From Gelidibacter sp. (GTDB taxonomy: Bacteria; Bacteroidota; Bacteroidia; Flavobacteriales; Flavobacteriaceae), in assembly GCA_010906935.1 (NCBI GenBank), contig JAAFHC010000004.1:1-41936 (forward strand): a stretch of 41,936 nucleotides of DNA, written 5' to 3'. How positions within the stretch are numbered: the stretch's first letter is position 1; each line of letters opens with the position of its first letter. Positions 11,897 through 30,413 of the stretch are shown in pieces. The translations under genes and the position numbers were made by a program. The notes below the pieces were generated by a model. It saw only the letters and a program-made list of their open reading frames with translations, was not told the DNA's origin and did not search any database.

Positions 11897-14347
11897 TTAA
11901 TATAAAGGTTTATATTTTGTTGGATTTACCTCATTCATCATGCCATAAATTGCCTCAAAAATATCTTCTTCATTGGGTTTTGAAAAATAATCGCCGTCGG
12001 TTCCGTAAGCTGCTCTGTGAGGTTTTGCGGTTAAAGTAACAGGCTTGCTGTCTAAATAGGCGTAAGCATTTTGCTTTTCTAAAATTTCATTTAATAAATA
12101 AGCAGATGCGCCTCCTGGAACATCTTCATCAATAATGATCAATCTGTTTGTTTTTTTGATGCTTTTAACCACATCCTTATTGGTGTCAAATGGCAACAGA
12201 CTTTGAACATCAATAATTTCAATATCAATATCAACCTGTTTTAAACTGTTTACCACATCTTCCACCAATTTTAAGGTGGAACCGTAGGAAACAACAGTAA
12301 TATCTTTCCCAATTTTAATGGTTTCAACAACACCGATTGGTGTTTTAAATTCCCCTAAATTGTTAGGGAATTTTTCTTTAAGTCGGTATCCGTTTAAATT
12401 TTCAACAATCAATGCAGGTTCGTCGCATTCCAACAAAGTATTGTAAAATCCGGCAGCTTTCGTCATATTTCTTGGAACCAAAATATTCATTCCCCTTAAT
12501 AAATGCACAATAGCGCCCATCGGCGATCCAGAATGCCAGATTCCTTCCAAACGGTGGCCACGGGTTCTTACAATTAACGGCGCTTTTTGTTTGCCAACAG
12601 TTCTGTAATGCAGTGTAGCCAAATCGTCACTCAATATTTGAATGGCGTACAATAAATAATCTAAATATTGAATTTCGGCAATTGGACGCAAGCCTCTTAG
12701 CGCCATTCCTATCCCTTGCCCGATAATGGTTGCTTCTCTAATGCCTGTATCGGCAACGCGAAGTTTTCCATATTTTTCCTGAAGTCCAACGAGTCCCTGA
12801 TTTACATCGCCAATATTTCCTGCATCTTCGCCAAAAATGAACAAATCTTTGTATTTTGAAAAGAGGATGTCAAAATTGTCTTTTATAATAATTCTGCCAT
12901 CAACCAATTCTGCATTTGCATCATAAGTTGGCAAAACTTCTTTTACATGACTTACTTTTTTATCACTTTGACTGTATAAATAGGAGCTGTAGCTTGGTTG
13001 TTCTGTTTTTAAATAACTGACAATCCAATTTTGCAGTTGCGTTTTTTCGGCAAACTTCTCCTCTCTTACGTAAACAATGGCTTTTCTAGCAGCAACTAAA
13101 AGGTCTTTTCTTGAAGTGTCTAAAACAGTGGCCAAATCGTTTTTCAATTTAATAATAAATGGTTTGTTATGGCTTTTTGTCGCAAGATTCTCCAACAATT
13201 GAATAACCTTGATTTTTTCTTCTTTTACCGGATTTAAAAAAGCATTCCAAGCATCTCTTCTGGCTTGATTGACCTCTTTTTTTGCTTCTTTTTCAATGAT
13301 GATCAATTCTTCTTCGGCATCTACAAATCGCAGCAAGTTATTATTGCTGTCTTTTAATTCGAATTCAATAATCCAGTCGCGCATTTTGACTAGACAGTCG
13401 TTTTGTTTTTCCCAAATTAAGCGTTCTTTTGATTTGTAGCGTTCGTGTGAACCGGAAGTTGAATGGCCTTGTGGCTGTGTTAAATCTTTTACATGAATTA
13501 AAACGGGCACATGCTCTTCTCTGGCAATTTTTGCTGCTTTGTTGTAAACGGAAATCAATTGTGGATAATCCCAGCCATTTACTACGAAAATCTCAAATCC
13601 GTCTTCGGTTTCATTGCGTTGAAATCCTTTTAATATTTCAGAAATACTTTCTTTGGTAGTTTGATATTTTGCCGGAACAGAAATACCGTAATCATCGTCC
13701 CAAACGCTAATAATCATAGGAACCTGTAAAACTCCTGCTGCATTTATGGTTTCAAAAAATAAGCCTTCTGAAGTGCTTGCGTTTCCAATAGTTCCCCACG
13801 AAATTTCATTTCCGTTGTTTGAAAATTTTGGATTTTTTAATTCAGGAATATTTCGAAATTTTTTTGATGCTTGTGCAATTCCGAGCATTCTAGGCATTTG
13901 TCCGGCTGTTGGTGAAATATCTCCAGTGGAATTGTATTGTTCGGTCAAGTTTTTAAAATGGCCATTTTCGTCCAAACTATGTGTTGCAAAATGGCCGCCC
14001 ATTTGTCTGCCGCCCGACATAGGATCGGCATTGATGTCGGCATGAGCATAAAGCCCAGCAAAAAATTGTTGGGGAGTTAGCTCGCCAATGGCCATCATAA
14101 AAGTTTGGTCGCGATAATAACCCGACCGAAAATCTCCTTTCTTAAAAGCCTTCGCCATAGCCAGTTGAGGCACTTCTTTGCCATCTCCAAAAATGCCAAA
14201 TTTTGCCTTTCCGGTTAATACTTCTCTACGGCCCAAGTAACTGCATTCTCTACTTATTACCGCAATTTGGTAATCGCGTAAGACTTCCTTTTTAAATTGA
14301 TTGAATGATAATTGTTCTTGGTTGGTGGATGAAGATTTTACCTGCAT
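11897..14347 (-). CDS. 2-oxoacid dehydrogenase E1, fused alpha and beta subunits
   Basis: An 816-residue fusion of the two E1 chains of a branched-chain-type 2-oxoacid dehydrogenase. E1 uses ThDP to decarboxylate the oxoacid and acylate the lipoyl group of E2. The N-terminal alpha half shows YYRDQTFMMAIG, SGGRQMGGHF, SPTAGQMPRMLGIAQA and the ThDP region GTIGNASTSEGLFFETIN with VWDDDYGIS. In that region the usual GDG reads GNA, as I recall for Bacteroidetes forms. From about residue 490 the beta half follows: FIFGEDAGNIGDVNQGL, ADTGIREATIIGQGIGMAL, RTRGHRLEGIWHSGSPMG. It stands alone, with its own promoter (14379-14410) and terminator; E2 and E3 are not nearby. Branched-chain substrates are likely but not proven. 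Confidence 0.88.
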   Translation of the reverse strand: MQVKSSSTNQEQLSFNQFKKEVLRDYQIAVISRECSYLGRREVLTGKAKFGIFGDGKEVPQLAMAKAFKKGDFRSGYYRDQTFMMAIGELTPQQFFAGLYAHADINADPMSGGRQMGGHFATHSLDENGHFKNLTEQYNSTGDISPTAGQMPRMLGIAQASKKFRNIPELKNPKFSNNGNEISWGTIGNASTSEGLFFETINAAGVLQVPMIISVWDDDYGISVPAKYQTTKESISEILKGFQRNETEDGFEIFVVNGWDYPQLISVYNKAAKIAREEHVPVLIHVKDLTQPQGHSTSGSHERYKSKERLIWEKQNDCLVKMRDWIIEFELKDSNNNLLRFVDAEEELIIIEKEAKKEVNQARRDAWNAFLNPVKEEKIKVIQLLENLATKSHNKPFIIKLKNDLATVLDTSRKDLLVAARKAIVYVREEKFAEKTQLQNWIVSYLKTEQPSYSSYLYSQSDKKVSHVKEVLPTYDANAELVDGRIIIKDNFDILFSKYKDLFIFGEDAGNIGDVNQGLVGLQEKYGKLRVADTGIREATIIGQGIGMALRGLRPIAEIQYLDYLLYAIQILSDDLATLHYRTVGKQKAPLIVRTRGHRLEGIWHSGSPMGAIVHLLRGMNILVPRNMTKAAGFYNTLLECDEPALIVENLNGYRLKEKFPNNLGEFKTPIGVVETIKIGKDITVVSYGSTLKLVEDVVNSLKQVDIDIEIIDVQSLLPFDTNKDVVKSIKKTNRLIIIDEDVPGGASAYLLNEILEKQNAYAYLDSKPVTLTAKPHRAAYGTDGDYFSKPNEEDIFEAIYGMMNEVNPTKYKPLY

Positions 14348-14410: not shown

Positions 14411-14420
14411 AAACGGGGAT

Positions 14421-14494
14421 AAAAGTTAAAATGTTAAAAGTTAAAAGTTAAAGGTTAAATGTTAAAAGTTAAATATTAAAGGTTAAAAGTTAAG
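14421..14494. repeat. Degenerate heptanucleotide tandem repeat
   Basis: About ten units of a 7-base motif close to GTTAAAA (variants GTTAAAG, GTTAAAT, ATTAAAG). It lies between the outer-membrane protein gene and the E1 gene in a 206-base gap without genes. Such arrays are common between Bacteroidetes genes, probably by slippage. Confidence 0.7.
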
Positions 14495-14521
14495 CAATTA
14501 AAATTAATTGACAAAAAACTT

Positions 14522-14553: not shown

Positions 14554-17364
14554 CTAATAAAATCCTCTTTTAGCGAAATTGTATATTTTTTTTGGATTTA
14601 TGACCAACACGAACCTAATTTTGGTGCTGTATCTTGGCTGGGTCAATTCCCATCCCAAATTGGAATAAAACGGAAAATAAACTTCTAAAATATCGTGTAT
14701 AAAGTTTAATCTTACACCACCTTCATAAGCAAAATAAACTTTTTCATCTCTATTTTTTACAAAACCGACATCATTATAAACTTCAAGCCATCGCCACAAT
14801 CCAACACTTGTGTTTATGGTTGTTAGCCATTGATTTGCATAGGCAACGGGAAGTTTCGATTTAAATCCGCCTTCATTAATGATAATTTGCTGACTTAAAA
14901 TCCCCGAAGTTTCAGATCTTCCCAAATAGTCATATTGAAATAAATAATCGGTTGGTCTGTCCAAGGCGAAACTAAAGAAATCCGTTTCGGTTTTATTGGA
15001 CAAAAACGCCCCTGCGAAAACTCTGAAATCAAATTGTCTGTTGGTATCGGTTAGCAATCTATATTGCGCTGTGGCTGAGATTTTACTAAATTTATCAGCA
15101 AATTGAAATCCGCCAGAAAATCTAAAATCTTCTATAATATTTGGCTTTGAATATCCATAACTTATATTGAAAACATTGTATTTGTTGGTTTCAATATGTT
15201 GCGTTTGCGTTGGTGACTTTTCCCTGTCTATCATCACATAGGAAGTGTACAATATGCTATTACTTACATCTCTAAAACTTTTTCTTTTTAATTCAAGTAG
15301 TGCGAATGGTGTAAAAGTACTGTAACTTAGGTCTTTTGCATATTGAAAACTGCTGCCAGAAACTCCTGTTAAAAATCTATTCACTATTTTATCTTCGGGC
15401 AAGTATTCATAAAGCAAGGAAAAAGTTCCAGAAAAGGCATTGCTTTTTGTTCCGTAAGAAGGTATCAGTTTGTATTGAAAACTCTTGTTTAGCAATGTTT
15501 TGTTTGATATGGCCATGCCTAAAACCACGCCATCATAAAAATTGTATCGTGCTTCTGGCGTATAAAAAAATTGGTTGTAATAAGGGTTTTCTATGTCCTT
15601 CATAAATTTTAACTGCAGAGGCCTGTTAAATAATTTTTTGTCAATATTTTTCCAATTATTTCTTAAATTATATTCGGGCAAATAGAATTCGTGGTTTAAT
15701 GAAAGTCGATCAAAACCGTTGGTTGGAATGGTAATTTTTGTTAGGGAATCTATGCCAACCAGCCATTCTTTAAATACGATTTCTTTATTGTGAATGCCAT
15801 ATAATTGAATGGGTGCGGTAAAATTTCGTTTATTTAAAATACTGATTTCAAGGGAATCATTTTTTTTGACTATTTTTTTGATGGTATAATCAACTTTTTT
15901 GCTGGTGTTTAAATAATCTGATTTAAACCAGGCAATATCTTTAGGCAAATCAATTAATTTTAAAAACAAATCGCTTTGGGTGTTTTGTCCGGTATATTTT
16001 TCTGAAAAACTTTTTATAGCCCCTAATATTATGTCTTCGCCTAAATAATTTTCCAAATATTGAATTCCCAATCCAGCTTTGTATTTATTTACAATTTTTC
16101 TGTTGAAATTCGACAGGGAATCGGCGGGAGTTGTTAATGGTTGGTCTAAATTTTTTCTTGCCGCAAATTGGTAGACAAAAGGATATTTATCATTAAAATC
16201 GATTTTGGCCAAGTTAAAACTTTTAACACCCCAAATTTTTGAAATATCGCCAATCGCTTTTACTTCAGGATAATATTTTTCGACATATTTAATCATTAAA
16301 TAGGTTTGTAATCCATCTGCAAGCCAAGCGTCTTCTCTTTGGTTAAACAAAAAAACGTTGTCTATATATTTTCTGCTTAAAATTTTAAATAGCTGAATGT
16401 CAAATTCAAAAGTATCATTAAAGGGCTTTAAAAAAGTAGGCAATTGGTTAAAACCATATACCGGATTTTTTTCATAATCTATTTTATTAATGAGAAGTTT
16501 CTCATGCGGATATGCGCCTAAATACGAGGCAATAAAAGAAAGTTCTCTATTGATGATCTCTTTTTTAATTGCAGGATGTAATTTTTTCGAATCTATGTTG
16601 GTGATTAAAGAAACGGGCTTAGAATTATAAGCAACAAAATCATTTTCTTTGGTGATGCTTAAGGCAATATCCTGTCTATTTTTTCCAACCAATTTATAGC
16701 TGTTAAAATTGGACAGTGAATCAACGGAAACGGTTAAATCACTATTTAACACATAATCTTTCGGCACTTTTATGTTGATCAGATAATTTGTATAATCAAC
16801 ATACAAATCATCCATATCCAAATTGTTTTGAAGATGCCATTTTCCGTCGAAAACAGCAGGAATTAAGTACCAATACCGTAAATTATAGCCAGTTTTATTC
16901 ACGCCATAATTTGTAAACTTATCATTGGGAATTTTTAAGGTATAAGTTGCTATTATTTTTATGGATTCTTTCGGTTTTAAAGATTGCTTTAAATTGATTT
17001 TTAAGATATCCGGATTTTTCGCTGTAATTTCCCAAGTAACAAGATCGTAATTCACCGAGAAACTATTTATTTTAGCGCTTCCTCTGTGCTTTTCATTGGC
17101 AAAATGAAATGTATTTGAATAATTTTCAATAAAACGTTTGGCCAATGGCGTATTTTTATCCTTATAGGCATTTGCCCAATTATGAAAATATACGGTGTTT
17201 AAAGTACTGTCGGATTTGTTGTAAAAATTGATTTCCTGTTGAATTTTAAGCTCGTTTGTTTGTGTATTTAAAACAGCAAGTATGGTGGTATTGTTTGTTT
17301 GGGAATTAACATTATTCCAACAAAGAATACCGGCTAAAAGCGTTAAAAATAGCTGTTTTTTCAA
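14554..17364 (-). CDS. Outer-membrane protein with inactive M1-peptidase-like domain and beta-barrel
   Basis: A 936-residue secreted protein. Residues 1-21 form a signal peptide ending before SQTNN. Residues 25-480 resemble M1 aminopeptidases: an N-terminal beta domain, AYPHEKLLINKI (284-295), GFNQLP (304-309) where active enzymes have the GxMEN-type motif, and WLADG (347-351) where they have WLNEG. The zinc motif HExxH is absent from the whole protein, so it should not be a peptidase. From about residue 600 the chain alternates polar and aromatic residues like a beta-barrel and ends RGFY, the typical aromatic C-terminus for outer-membrane insertion. It lies 8 bases after the LOG-family gene and probably shares its transcript. 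Function unknown; surface binding is a guess. Confidence 0.75.
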   Translation of the reverse strand: MKKQLFLTLLAGILCWNNVNSQTNNTTILAVLNTQTNELKIQQEINFYNKSDSTLNTVYFHNWANAYKDKNTPLAKRFIENYSNTFHFANEKHRGSAKINSFSVNYDLVTWEITAKNPDILKINLKQSLKPKESIKIIATYTLKIPNDKFTNYGVNKTGYNLRYWYLIPAVFDGKWHLQNNLDMDDLYVDYTNYLINIKVPKDYVLNSDLTVSVDSLSNFNSYKLVGKNRQDIALSITKENDFVAYNSKPVSLITNIDSKKLHPAIKKEIINRELSFIASYLGAYPHEKLLINKIDYEKNPVYGFNQLPTFLKPFNDTFEFDIQLFKILSRKYIDNVFLFNQREDAWLADGLQTYLMIKYVEKYYPEVKAIGDISKIWGVKSFNLAKIDFNDKYPFVYQFAARKNLDQPLTTPADSLSNFNRKIVNKYKAGLGIQYLENYLGEDIILGAIKSFSEKYTGQNTQSDLFLKLIDLPKDIAWFKSDYLNTSKKVDYTIKKIVKKNDSLEISILNKRNFTAPIQLYGIHNKEIVFKEWLVGIDSLTKITIPTNGFDRLSLNHEFYLPEYNLRNNWKNIDKKLFNRPLQLKFMKDIENPYYNQFFYTPEARYNFYDGVVLGMAISNKTLLNKSFQYKLIPSYGTKSNAFSGTFSLLYEYLPEDKIVNRFLTGVSGSSFQYAKDLSYSTFTPFALLELKRKSFRDVSNSILYTSYVMIDREKSPTQTQHIETNKYNVFNISYGYSKPNIIEDFRFSGGFQFADKFSKISATAQYRLLTDTNRQFDFRVFAGAFLSNKTETDFFSFALDRPTDYLFQYDYLGRSETSGILSQQIIINEGGFKSKLPVAYANQWLTTINTSVGLWRWLEVYNDVGFVKNRDEKVYFAYEGGVRLNFIHDILEVYFPFYSNLGWELTQPRYSTKIRFVLVINPKKIYNFAKRGFY

Positions 17365-28171: not shown

Positions 28172-28203
28172 TTTGTTTAAAAAATAAAACTTTAATACAT
28201 TTG
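28172..28203 (+). promoter_or_regulatory. Promoter of the tRNA-tuf operon
   Basis: TTTG (28172-28175), 20 bases, then TACATTTG (28196-28203), a close match to the Bacteroidetes -33/-7 consensus, about 41 bases before tRNA-Thr. A short stem CCGTTA-GAAA-TAGCGG (28208-28223) lies just downstream near the expected start of the transcript. Confidence 0.7.
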
Positions 28204-28244
28204 CAGTCCGTTAGAAATAGCGGGCTTCTTTTATGGAGTAAAAA

Positions 28245-28318
28245 GCCGATGTAGCTCAGCTGGCTAGAGCAGCTGATTTGTAATCAGCAGGTCGTGGGTT
28301 CGAGTCCCTCTATCGGCT
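28245..28318 (+). tRNA. tRNA-Thr(TGT)
   Basis: Full cloverleaf. Acceptor GCCGATG pairs with TATCGGC, D-arm GCTCAGCTGGCTAGAGC, anticodon stem GCTGA/TCAGC around loop TTTGTAA (anticodon TGT), T-loop GGTTCGAGTCC. The discriminator is T and CCA is not encoded. First gene of the tRNA-tuf operon. Its 3' end is copied three times downstream. Confidence 0.96.
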
Positions 28319-28658
28319 CATTGAAATTGTAAAATGCTTGGGAGTAAATATTTTGATTTAATTTGAAATGTTTATAAAAAGGGACGAGAAGTTTATCCTG
28401 AGCGCAGTCGAAGGAAGTCCCTCTATCGGCTCATTGAAATTGTAAAATGCTTGGGAGTAAATATTTTGATTTAATTTGAAATGTTTATAAAATGGGACGA
28501 GAAGTTTATCCTGAGCGCAGTCGAAAGGATGTATCTCTATCGGCTCATTGAAATTGCAAAATGCTTGGGAGTAAATATTTTGATTTAATTTGAAATGTTT
28601 ATAAAAAGGGACAAGAAGTTTGTCCTGAGCGCAGTCGAAAGGATGTATCTCTATCGGC
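28303..28658 (+). repeat. Three tandem 113-114 bp repeats ending in tRNA-Thr 3' ends
   Basis: Units of 113, 114 and 114 bases start from the T-arm of tRNA-Thr(TGT). Each consists of the tRNA 3' tail (CTCTATCGGC and usually TCA), about 60 bases of AT-rich flank (TTGAAATTG...TTTATAAAA), and a GC-richer element of about 35 bases with core CCTGAGCGCAGTCGAA. Copies of the tail sit at 28421, 28535 and 28649; the first also copies AGTCC. Copies 2 and 3 share GGATGTATCTC at the junction. The third copy is cut at CGGCC, shortly before tRNA-Tyr. It fills the 356 bases between tRNA-Thr and tRNA-Tyr; no protein gene is seen there. Confidence 0.9.
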
Positions 28659-28674
28659 CAGATCTTTGAAAAAT

Positions 28675-28755
<81 letters not shown>

Positions 28756-30229: not shown

Positions 30230-30273
30230 GTAAATTATGGGTGCTTCTTTTAAGAGGGGCACCTTAAATTTAC
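30230..30273 (+). other. Hairpin between tuf and tRNA-Trp
   Basis: GTAAATT (30230-30236) pairs with AATTTAC (30267-30273). Inside are GGTGC/GCACC and a weaker TTCTT/AAGAG stem. The right arm takes in the first bases of tRNA-Trp, so it may mark a processing site in the tuf-trnW transcript. Confidence 0.45.
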
Positions 30274-30344
30274 GGGTGTAGCTCAGTTGGTAGAGCACTG
30301 GTCTCCAAAACCAGGTGTCGGGAGTTCGAGTCTCTCCACCCGTG
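30272..30344 (+). tRNA. tRNA-Trp(CCA)
   Basis: Acceptor ACGGGTG/CACCCGT, anticodon stem CTGGT/ACCAG with loop CTCCAAA (CCA), T-arm GGGAGTTCGAGTCTCTC, discriminator G. CCA is not encoded. Between tuf and secE, the usual place. Its last bases are duplicated at 30394. Confidence 0.96.
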
Positions 30345-30413
30345 CAAATTAAAAAAGTGGTGTGAGAAGTTTATCCTGAGCGTAGTCGAAGGAAGTCTCT
30401 CCACCCGTGCAAA
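30329..30413 (+). repeat. 65-bp repeat unit duplicating the tRNA-Trp 3' end
   Basis: The 20 bases AGTCTCTCCACCCGTGCAAA occur at 30329-30348 (end of tRNA-Trp) and again at 30394-30413. Between them lies a copy of the element found after tRNA-Thr, GAGAAGTTTATCCTGAGCG, then TAGTCGAAGGA. The second copy ends 10 bases before the secE ATG, so the repeat forms the secE leader. Confidence 0.9.

Follow-up and report, generated by a model that had tools for sequence, protein, structure and literature searches.

Repeat units ending in copies of host tRNA 3' ends in Flavobacteriaceae, a candidate counterpart of the Escherichia coli tyrT (rtT) repeats

Introduction

How does a short repeat come to lie behind a tRNA gene, with each unit ending in a copy of that gene's own 3' end? 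The question is raised by a tRNA-Thr(TGT) gene of Gelidibacter sp. (Flavobacteriaceae) in a stretch of 41,936 nucleotides of contig JAAFHC010000004.1 (assembly GCA_010906935.1), here called the window. The NusG of the window contig is 100% identical to the NusG of two Lutibacter MAGs. Integrative elements that target tRNA genes, phages and ICEs among them, use the 3' end of the gene, starting at the T-loop, and leave the gene restored. Earlier work on E. coli has regarded its tyrT repeats either as a curiosity of one locus or as an RNA with a regulatory role. Among the papers listed by our literature searches, including a sequence-string search, none dealt with such units in Bacteroidota.

Results

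The initial annotation described three tandem units of 113-114 bp behind tRNA-Thr(TGT). Tandem Repeats Finder (TRF) reported one array here (28308-28658, period 114, 3.1 copies, 96% matches), and ARAGORN called the intact tRNA gene at its head (Table 1). The motif CCTGAGCGNAGTCGAA, searched across the window with ≤2 mismatches permitted, gave 4 matches against 0.05 expected by chance. All were exact, three of them in the Thr array (28397, 28510 and 28624, spacings 113 and 114) and one at 30375. The array thus stands as first described. So do the tRNA tail that follows each element, exact in the first unit and shortened in the second and third, and the changes said to be common to the later copies, which we find as GGATGTAT ahead of both shortened tails. 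Sequence comparison showed the three units to be mutually distinct by point changes. No ORF of ≥80 aa is listed inside 28320-28658, and no integrase gene was found between the tRNA tails. A second tandem repeat of the window, at 14420-14507 (period 7 / 28, TAAAAGT), lies between the minus-strand ORFs 11897-14347 and 14554-17364.

Table 1. Repeat units and host tRNA genes in the window.
Feature	Position	Strand	Basis
tRNA-Thr(TGT), intact, source of the copied 3' end	28245..28319	+	ARAGORN; Rfam tRNA 66.7 bits
AT-rich spacer, Thr unit 1; recurs in units 2 and 3	28320..28380	+	sequence; TRF array
Arm GGGAC, Thr unit 1, reverse complement of tRNA nt 59-63 (GTCCC)	28381..28385	+	sequence; isotype covariation
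Conserved core, Thr unit 1, GAGAAGTTTATCCTGAGCGCAGTCGAAGG	28386..28414	+	motif search; survey of copies
tRNA-Thr 3' end copy (from A58), Thr unit 1, exact	28416..28432	+	sequence; survey of copies
Arm and core, Thr unit 2	28494..28527	+	sequence; survey of copies
Tail copy, Thr unit 2, shortened; changed stretch GGATGTAT just before	28535..28546	+	sequence
Arm and diverged core (3 mismatches), Thr unit 3	28608..28641	+	sequence; survey of copies
Tail copy, Thr unit 3, shortened; joins the downstream sequence of empty sites, AGATCTTTGAAA	28649..28658	+	sequence; relatives' empty sites
tRNA-Trp(CCA), second host tRNA of the window, behind tuf	30272..30345	+	ARAGORN
Arm GTGGTGT, Trp unit, in part complementary to the Trp tail	30357..30363	+	sequence
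Core, Trp unit	30364..30392	+	motif search; survey of copies
tRNA-Trp 3' end copy (from A58), exact	30394..30410	+	sequence; survey of copies

The extent of the pattern is larger than first reported. The fourth motif match belongs to a unit that had been overlooked and that ends in tRNA-Trp's own exact tail. Also overlooked was a unit at the second tRNA-Thr of the same genome (L388), in which the apical hairpin is longer and arm and tail have both changed, to CGGAC and GTCCG.

All units follow one order: a spacer, a 5-nt arm reverse-complementary to nt 59-63 of the host tRNA, a conserved hairpin core of ~31 nt, and a copy of the host tRNA 3' end from A58. They measure about 64-118 bp and are found alone or in tandem arrays. 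GAGAAG lies either 16-31 nt (19/20 Trp; Ile, Arg, and part of the Lys and Gly units) or 39-72 nt from the tRNA end, apart from a single Met unit at 200. The arm is not a copy of the 5' strand of the T-stem, because nt 59-63 include two T-loop bases. In one case (L039) a second core is nested within the first.

Exact matches to the short core TGAGCGNAGTCGAA number 15 in this genome, 4 of them in the window, which makes the core a dispersed palindromic repeat, as a REP element is. It also occurs alone at other genome sites that have no tRNA tails. Among the core copies of this genome (n=20), the short flanking arms vary from copy to copy, and 51/60 flanking positions are complementary (0/10000 shuffles). 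For the 16 copies outside the window the figure is 43/48. At L007:1418-2470 (contig C267) a core lies in frame inside an ORF, encoding ALSGVEG near the ORF start; we take this ORF to resemble leucyl-tRNA synthetase. L018:1501-1743 (contig C208) contains 3 core copies spaced 119 and 109 bp apart, a stretch of N lying between copies, and ARAGORN found no tRNA near them.

Other Flavobacteriaceae carry the units far more widely than the initial annotation saw. AAGTTTATCCTGAGCGNAGTCGAA (≤2 mismatches) was detected in 20/38 Lutibacter genomes, and a longer pattern (≤3 mismatches) in at least 96 of 397 family genomes; the reversed control gave 0 in both searches. These prevalences are lower bounds, because the loci fetched were 80 stretches plus automatic loci, among the family matches listed, and because the pattern misses units whose apical loop carries a further, long hairpin (L367, L375, L388, L391). 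A sample of the phylum contained the pattern in 13/395 genomes. Ten of the 13 came from the same family, and the loci fetched from the remaining three (L317-L319, L328, L329, L336) contained no tRNA.

We then counted distinct copies in the window and L038-L257, after removing repeats of identical surroundings. A tRNA lay upstream on the same strand within 600 bp of 126/162 copies, and the last 13 nt of that host tRNA (≤2 edits) recurred behind 110 of the 126, compared with 1/126 for the reversed tail. Tails of other amino acids passed in 2/1379 comparisons. We report the two-edit count because a four-edit criterion over 13 nt was too lax on the reversed control (own tail 119/126, reversed 27/126, other amino acids 207/1379). 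The initial annotation had proposed looking in this family for the element beside a copy of a neighbouring gene's 3' end, and that is where it predominantly lies. Scatter at random places, which would have spoken against its reading, is not seen for the extended element, whereas the short core alone does turn up elsewhere without tRNA tails.

The other 36 copies had no upstream tRNA; one had a tRNA downstream only, and one had a tRNA on the opposite strand only. By inspection, with no formal count, some of the 36 show a tail with a broken, cut or undetected tRNA, and others are solitary. At L128 and L180 (compare L205 and L247) the host is probably a tRNA-Leu(TAG) gene that ARAGORN failed to call in the stretch fetched; further units may thus have an undetected upstream tRNA. 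A longer Lutibacter repeat (AAAAAAGG..AAGTTTATCC...GGGCT.CTAT...CTAAYGC; L127, L134, L136 and L137, ~1498) contains the core away from tRNAs.

In total, 13 isoacceptors serve as hosts, twelve in the arm-tail table described below plus Thr(CGT). We also examined a set chosen independently of the element, namely 80 tuf loci found via NusG. Tail copies stood behind 9/367 of their tRNAs (reversed 0/367), and the arm and core, or a recognisable variant, preceded all nine, L064 being the least alike.

Relatives provide both filled and empty forms of the same site. Of 30 tRNA-Thr loci compared, 19 are followed by tRNA-Tyr, as at tuf. Among the Lutibacter tuf-type Thr sites (n=19), 7 are empty with a gap of 16-19 nt, 8 have 1-3 tail copies, and 4 have a longer spacer and no tail copy. 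Tail copies at the 8 filled sites, the window included, have up to 3 substitutions and are partly degenerate. The last tail of the Thr array joins AGATCTTTGAAA, the sequence downstream of the tRNA in empty relatives. The Trp site behaves alike, with its empty form, GTGCAAAATTTGAAAAAATG, directly behind the second tail. Because the last tail joins empty-site sequence, the net insert consists of tail copy, spacer, arm and core, placed between the T-loop and the remainder of the gene.

Spacer and flank (the sequence behind the last tail) are alike in 28/82 arrays (p≤0.01), and the two have identical or near-identical terminators at L153, L174, L179 and L208. Both window arrays lack this likeness (p=0.17 each).

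Across hosts, the arm changes with the tRNA. We tabulated arms and tails from 116 rows, 87 of them unique isotype-arm-tail combinations; rows were dropped for lack of a tail copy, a tail not starting with A, or a short left flank. Of 7 possible Watson-Crick pairs, an arm forms 4.61 with the tail of its own unit and 3.37 with those of other isotypes, and permutation of the isotype labels reached the observed diagonal in 0/10000 trials. We also aligned 59 units without gaps (61 listed units minus window:28491-28538 and L171:1417-1464, whose indels would shift columns). The drawn structure is paired in 91.4% of cells, compared with 33-53% when it is slid, and two-sided changes number 67 against 18.3 in shuffles. 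Behind a tRNA-Ile (L166) the left side matches, by eye, most of the 16-nt tail.

Such covariation could come from selection on pairing or from the way in which the arms were made. Selection would be expected to make arms keep up with drifting tails. In the 21 units with a change between tRNA and tail copy at nt 59-63, the arm fits the tRNA better in 8, fits the copy better in 3, and fits both equally in 10; these units were picked for a changed tail, a selection that favours fit of the arm to the tRNA. Compensatory selection on arm and copied tail is thus unsupported in these 21 differing cases, where the choice of units itself favoured that outcome. Per position of the tail copy, 3-15 of the 116 units depart from the tRNA, with no clearly conserved stretch. 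These results, together with the locally differing core arms elsewhere, favour arms that were written at birth from the local sequence. The matched pair at L388 counts against this, being what selection for pairing would give. Mismatches at nt 59-62, counted from the arm-tail table, comprise G.T in 39 cases and A.C in 8, an excess that a selected sense-strand structure would also give.

We compared the units with the E. coli K-12 tyrT/tyrV repeats. There, copies of AATCCTTCCCCCACCACCA from A58 are preceded by GGGGAAGGAT-GAGAAG. GGGGAAGGAT is the exact reverse complement of the start of the tyrT tail, and GAGAAG follows the arm in 3/4 copies; the remaining copy has one arm change and GAGAAC. 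Shared with the Flavobacteriaceae units are the tandem arrangement behind a tRNA, a terminal copy of the tRNA 3' end that begins at A58, an arm reverse-complementary to the copied tail, the GAGAAG after it, and a structured core. The differences are another core sequence and length, a unit of 178 bp in E. coli versus about 64-118 bp, and the folding of the E. coli Lys unit, which is strong where that of the window units is not. By eye only, E. coli cores (for example GGGCGAGCGAAGCGAGT) and the Flavobacteriaceae core have in common a mini-hairpin, GA-GC-GNA-G(T)C-GA. Two papers report a tandem GA motif in RtT RNA (PMC7657543, PMC8250186), and a third links rtT-like sequences to BIMEs (PMC2965389).

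Rfam gave four RtT matches at the tyrT/tyrV locus (L337) and none for RtT (RF00391) in window positions 28200-28720 at E≤10; in a scan of the whole window no family except tRNA reached threshold. Given this lack of an RtT match, we regard the units as a probable Flavobacteriaceae counterpart of the tyrT (rtT) repeats, judged by architecture, and not as members of that family by sequence. K-12 itself has tail copies behind 11/65 scanned tRNAs (Tyr 2, Lys 6, Arg 3; reversed control 0), a count that includes the known tyrT/rtT repeats and is drawn from 65 ARAGORN tRNAs at fetched loci, among which tRNA-Arg(tcg) in L357 is probably a false call. Arms with ≤2/10 mismatches precede 10/13 of these tail copies (reversed control 2/13), and a good arm is absent in three of the 13 (lysQ, lysV and one Arg).

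Discussion

We consider the architecture itself close to certain. As to its origin, we lean on balance towards a hairpin core that is portable, its flanks being templated on the target tRNA, with recombination afterwards, which would make the units most likely a mobile or recurrently formed repeat. Only the core would be portable, arriving behind a tRNA gene or in its T-loop. We infer that both flanks would then be written from the target, the 5' flank in reverse complement and the 3' flank by copying the tail directly; template switching by fold-back at the T-arm may be one route. With flanks written from the target, the tRNA gene would stay intact. Homologous recombination or slippage between the direct repeats would later alter copy number, and the copies would decay.

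Several points count against this account. An asymmetric core (GAGAAGTTTATCC...) common to the tRNA sites also fits old common descent with arms adjusted later. Only 28/82 spacers resemble the flank, and no insertion event was observed. No mobilising enzyme was found, the exact core lying near one of 50 Y1-transposase loci. The initial annotation had proposed that a palindromic element entered or was copied at a rebuilt tRNA 3' end and was then amplified; this part of its reading survives here, and its suggestion of an effect on processing of the tRNA-tuf RNA does not survive as a general one.

A different reading takes the arm-core-tail hairpin as a cis-acting RNA, transcribed with the tRNA and selected for 3' processing or small-RNA release. 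E. coli rtT has been proposed as an RNA acting in this way, steering processing or being released as a small RNA. The covariation in outer and inner helices suits this reading, as do the strong folding of the E. coli Lys unit (z -3.80) and the RtT matches of the tyrT units in Rfam. In Actinobacillus, RtT members by Asn- and Lys-tRNA genes, with Northern signals, are reported in PMC4986893. In the window, however, shuffled sequences fold as well as the Thr unit (z +0.96), and the Trp unit folds weakly (z -1.47). Support for an Ile unit is also weak, folding as DNA has no support, and RNAalifold predicts the inner hairpin only, not the outer helix. A terminator-like site, by an ad hoc rule of a hairpin plus five T, lies between tRNA and element in 36/82 arrays, which argues against a general role in tRNA processing; it is missing ahead of the element in 15/15 Trp, 2/2 Ile and 20/28 Thr arrays, where transcription with the tRNA would meet no such site. 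Divergence of the tails is about even along their length, arms mostly do not follow diverged tails, and 7/19 Lutibacter tuf sites have no units at all. We therefore think a selected RNA unlikely as the general explanation, while counting it the most serious competitor to target-templated spread.

Movement of a REP-like element by a RAYT (Y1) transposase seems very improbable to us. The small palindromic core, scattered in the genome and found even inside an ORF (L007), resembles such elements. Among 38 Lutibacter genomes, Y1 is present in 16/20 with the pattern versus 4/18 without (p=0.0009), a count that ignores kinship and whose pattern also matches copies away from tRNAs. Despite this promising co-occurrence, we rejected RAYT as the mobiliser: the exact core is near only 1/50 fetched Y1 (PF01797) loci, or 2/50 with two mismatches allowed, in a set where L271 and L286 overlap and several loci are cut by contig ends. 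The core units further differ from REPs in being unlinked to Y1 genes, in having site-specific arms that match each other, and in carrying a direct copy of the tRNA end. We know of no RAYT insertion that duplicates 17-90 bp of target. Four Y1 loci were searched for hairpins. In one of them (L297), the Y1 ORF at 932-1525 is flanked on both sides (809-832 and 1542-1565) by hairpins of another sequence (CTTCGAAGTC), possibly its own REPs.

Similarly improbable is site-specific integration, with the units as scars or mini-elements of a tyrosine recombinase at a tRNA attB. tRNA tails are classic attB sites, and the copies, like such elements, have their start in the T-loop and rebuild the end of the tRNA gene. 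At about 64-118 bp, however, a unit is too short for a gene, and conservative recombination does not produce one core for 13 isoacceptors, each with its own tail copy and sometimes a copied terminator. Target sequence is moreover copied on both sides of the core. An assembly artefact can be set aside as next to negligible: the window is a contig of a 296-contig draft, but point changes distinguish the units, and the same site bears tail copies in 7 relatives, making simple assembly duplication unlikely. Arrays also occur within contigs that are several Mb long (G284:C1, G061:C2), and the complete genome of E. coli K-12 has them too.

Returning to target-templated spread, a wider version can be offered only tentatively, and we rather doubt it. 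Such spread without fixed flanks may be a process common to Bacteroidota and Gammaproteobacteria, acting on different cores, so that the tyrT repeats would exemplify a general kind of DNA mobility that bacteria show at tRNA T-arms.

An architecture like that of tyrT recurs in a second phylum behind 13 isoacceptors, and its arms differ according to the host tRNA. Because the arms vary in this way, the portable part can be separated from the part written by the target, and the origin of such repeats becomes open to comparative and laboratory testing. The units also carry a warning: covariation in such hairpins may date from their formation, and is then no proof of selection on an RNA. For the Flavobacteriaceae, they give loci of variable copy number beside tuf and secE.
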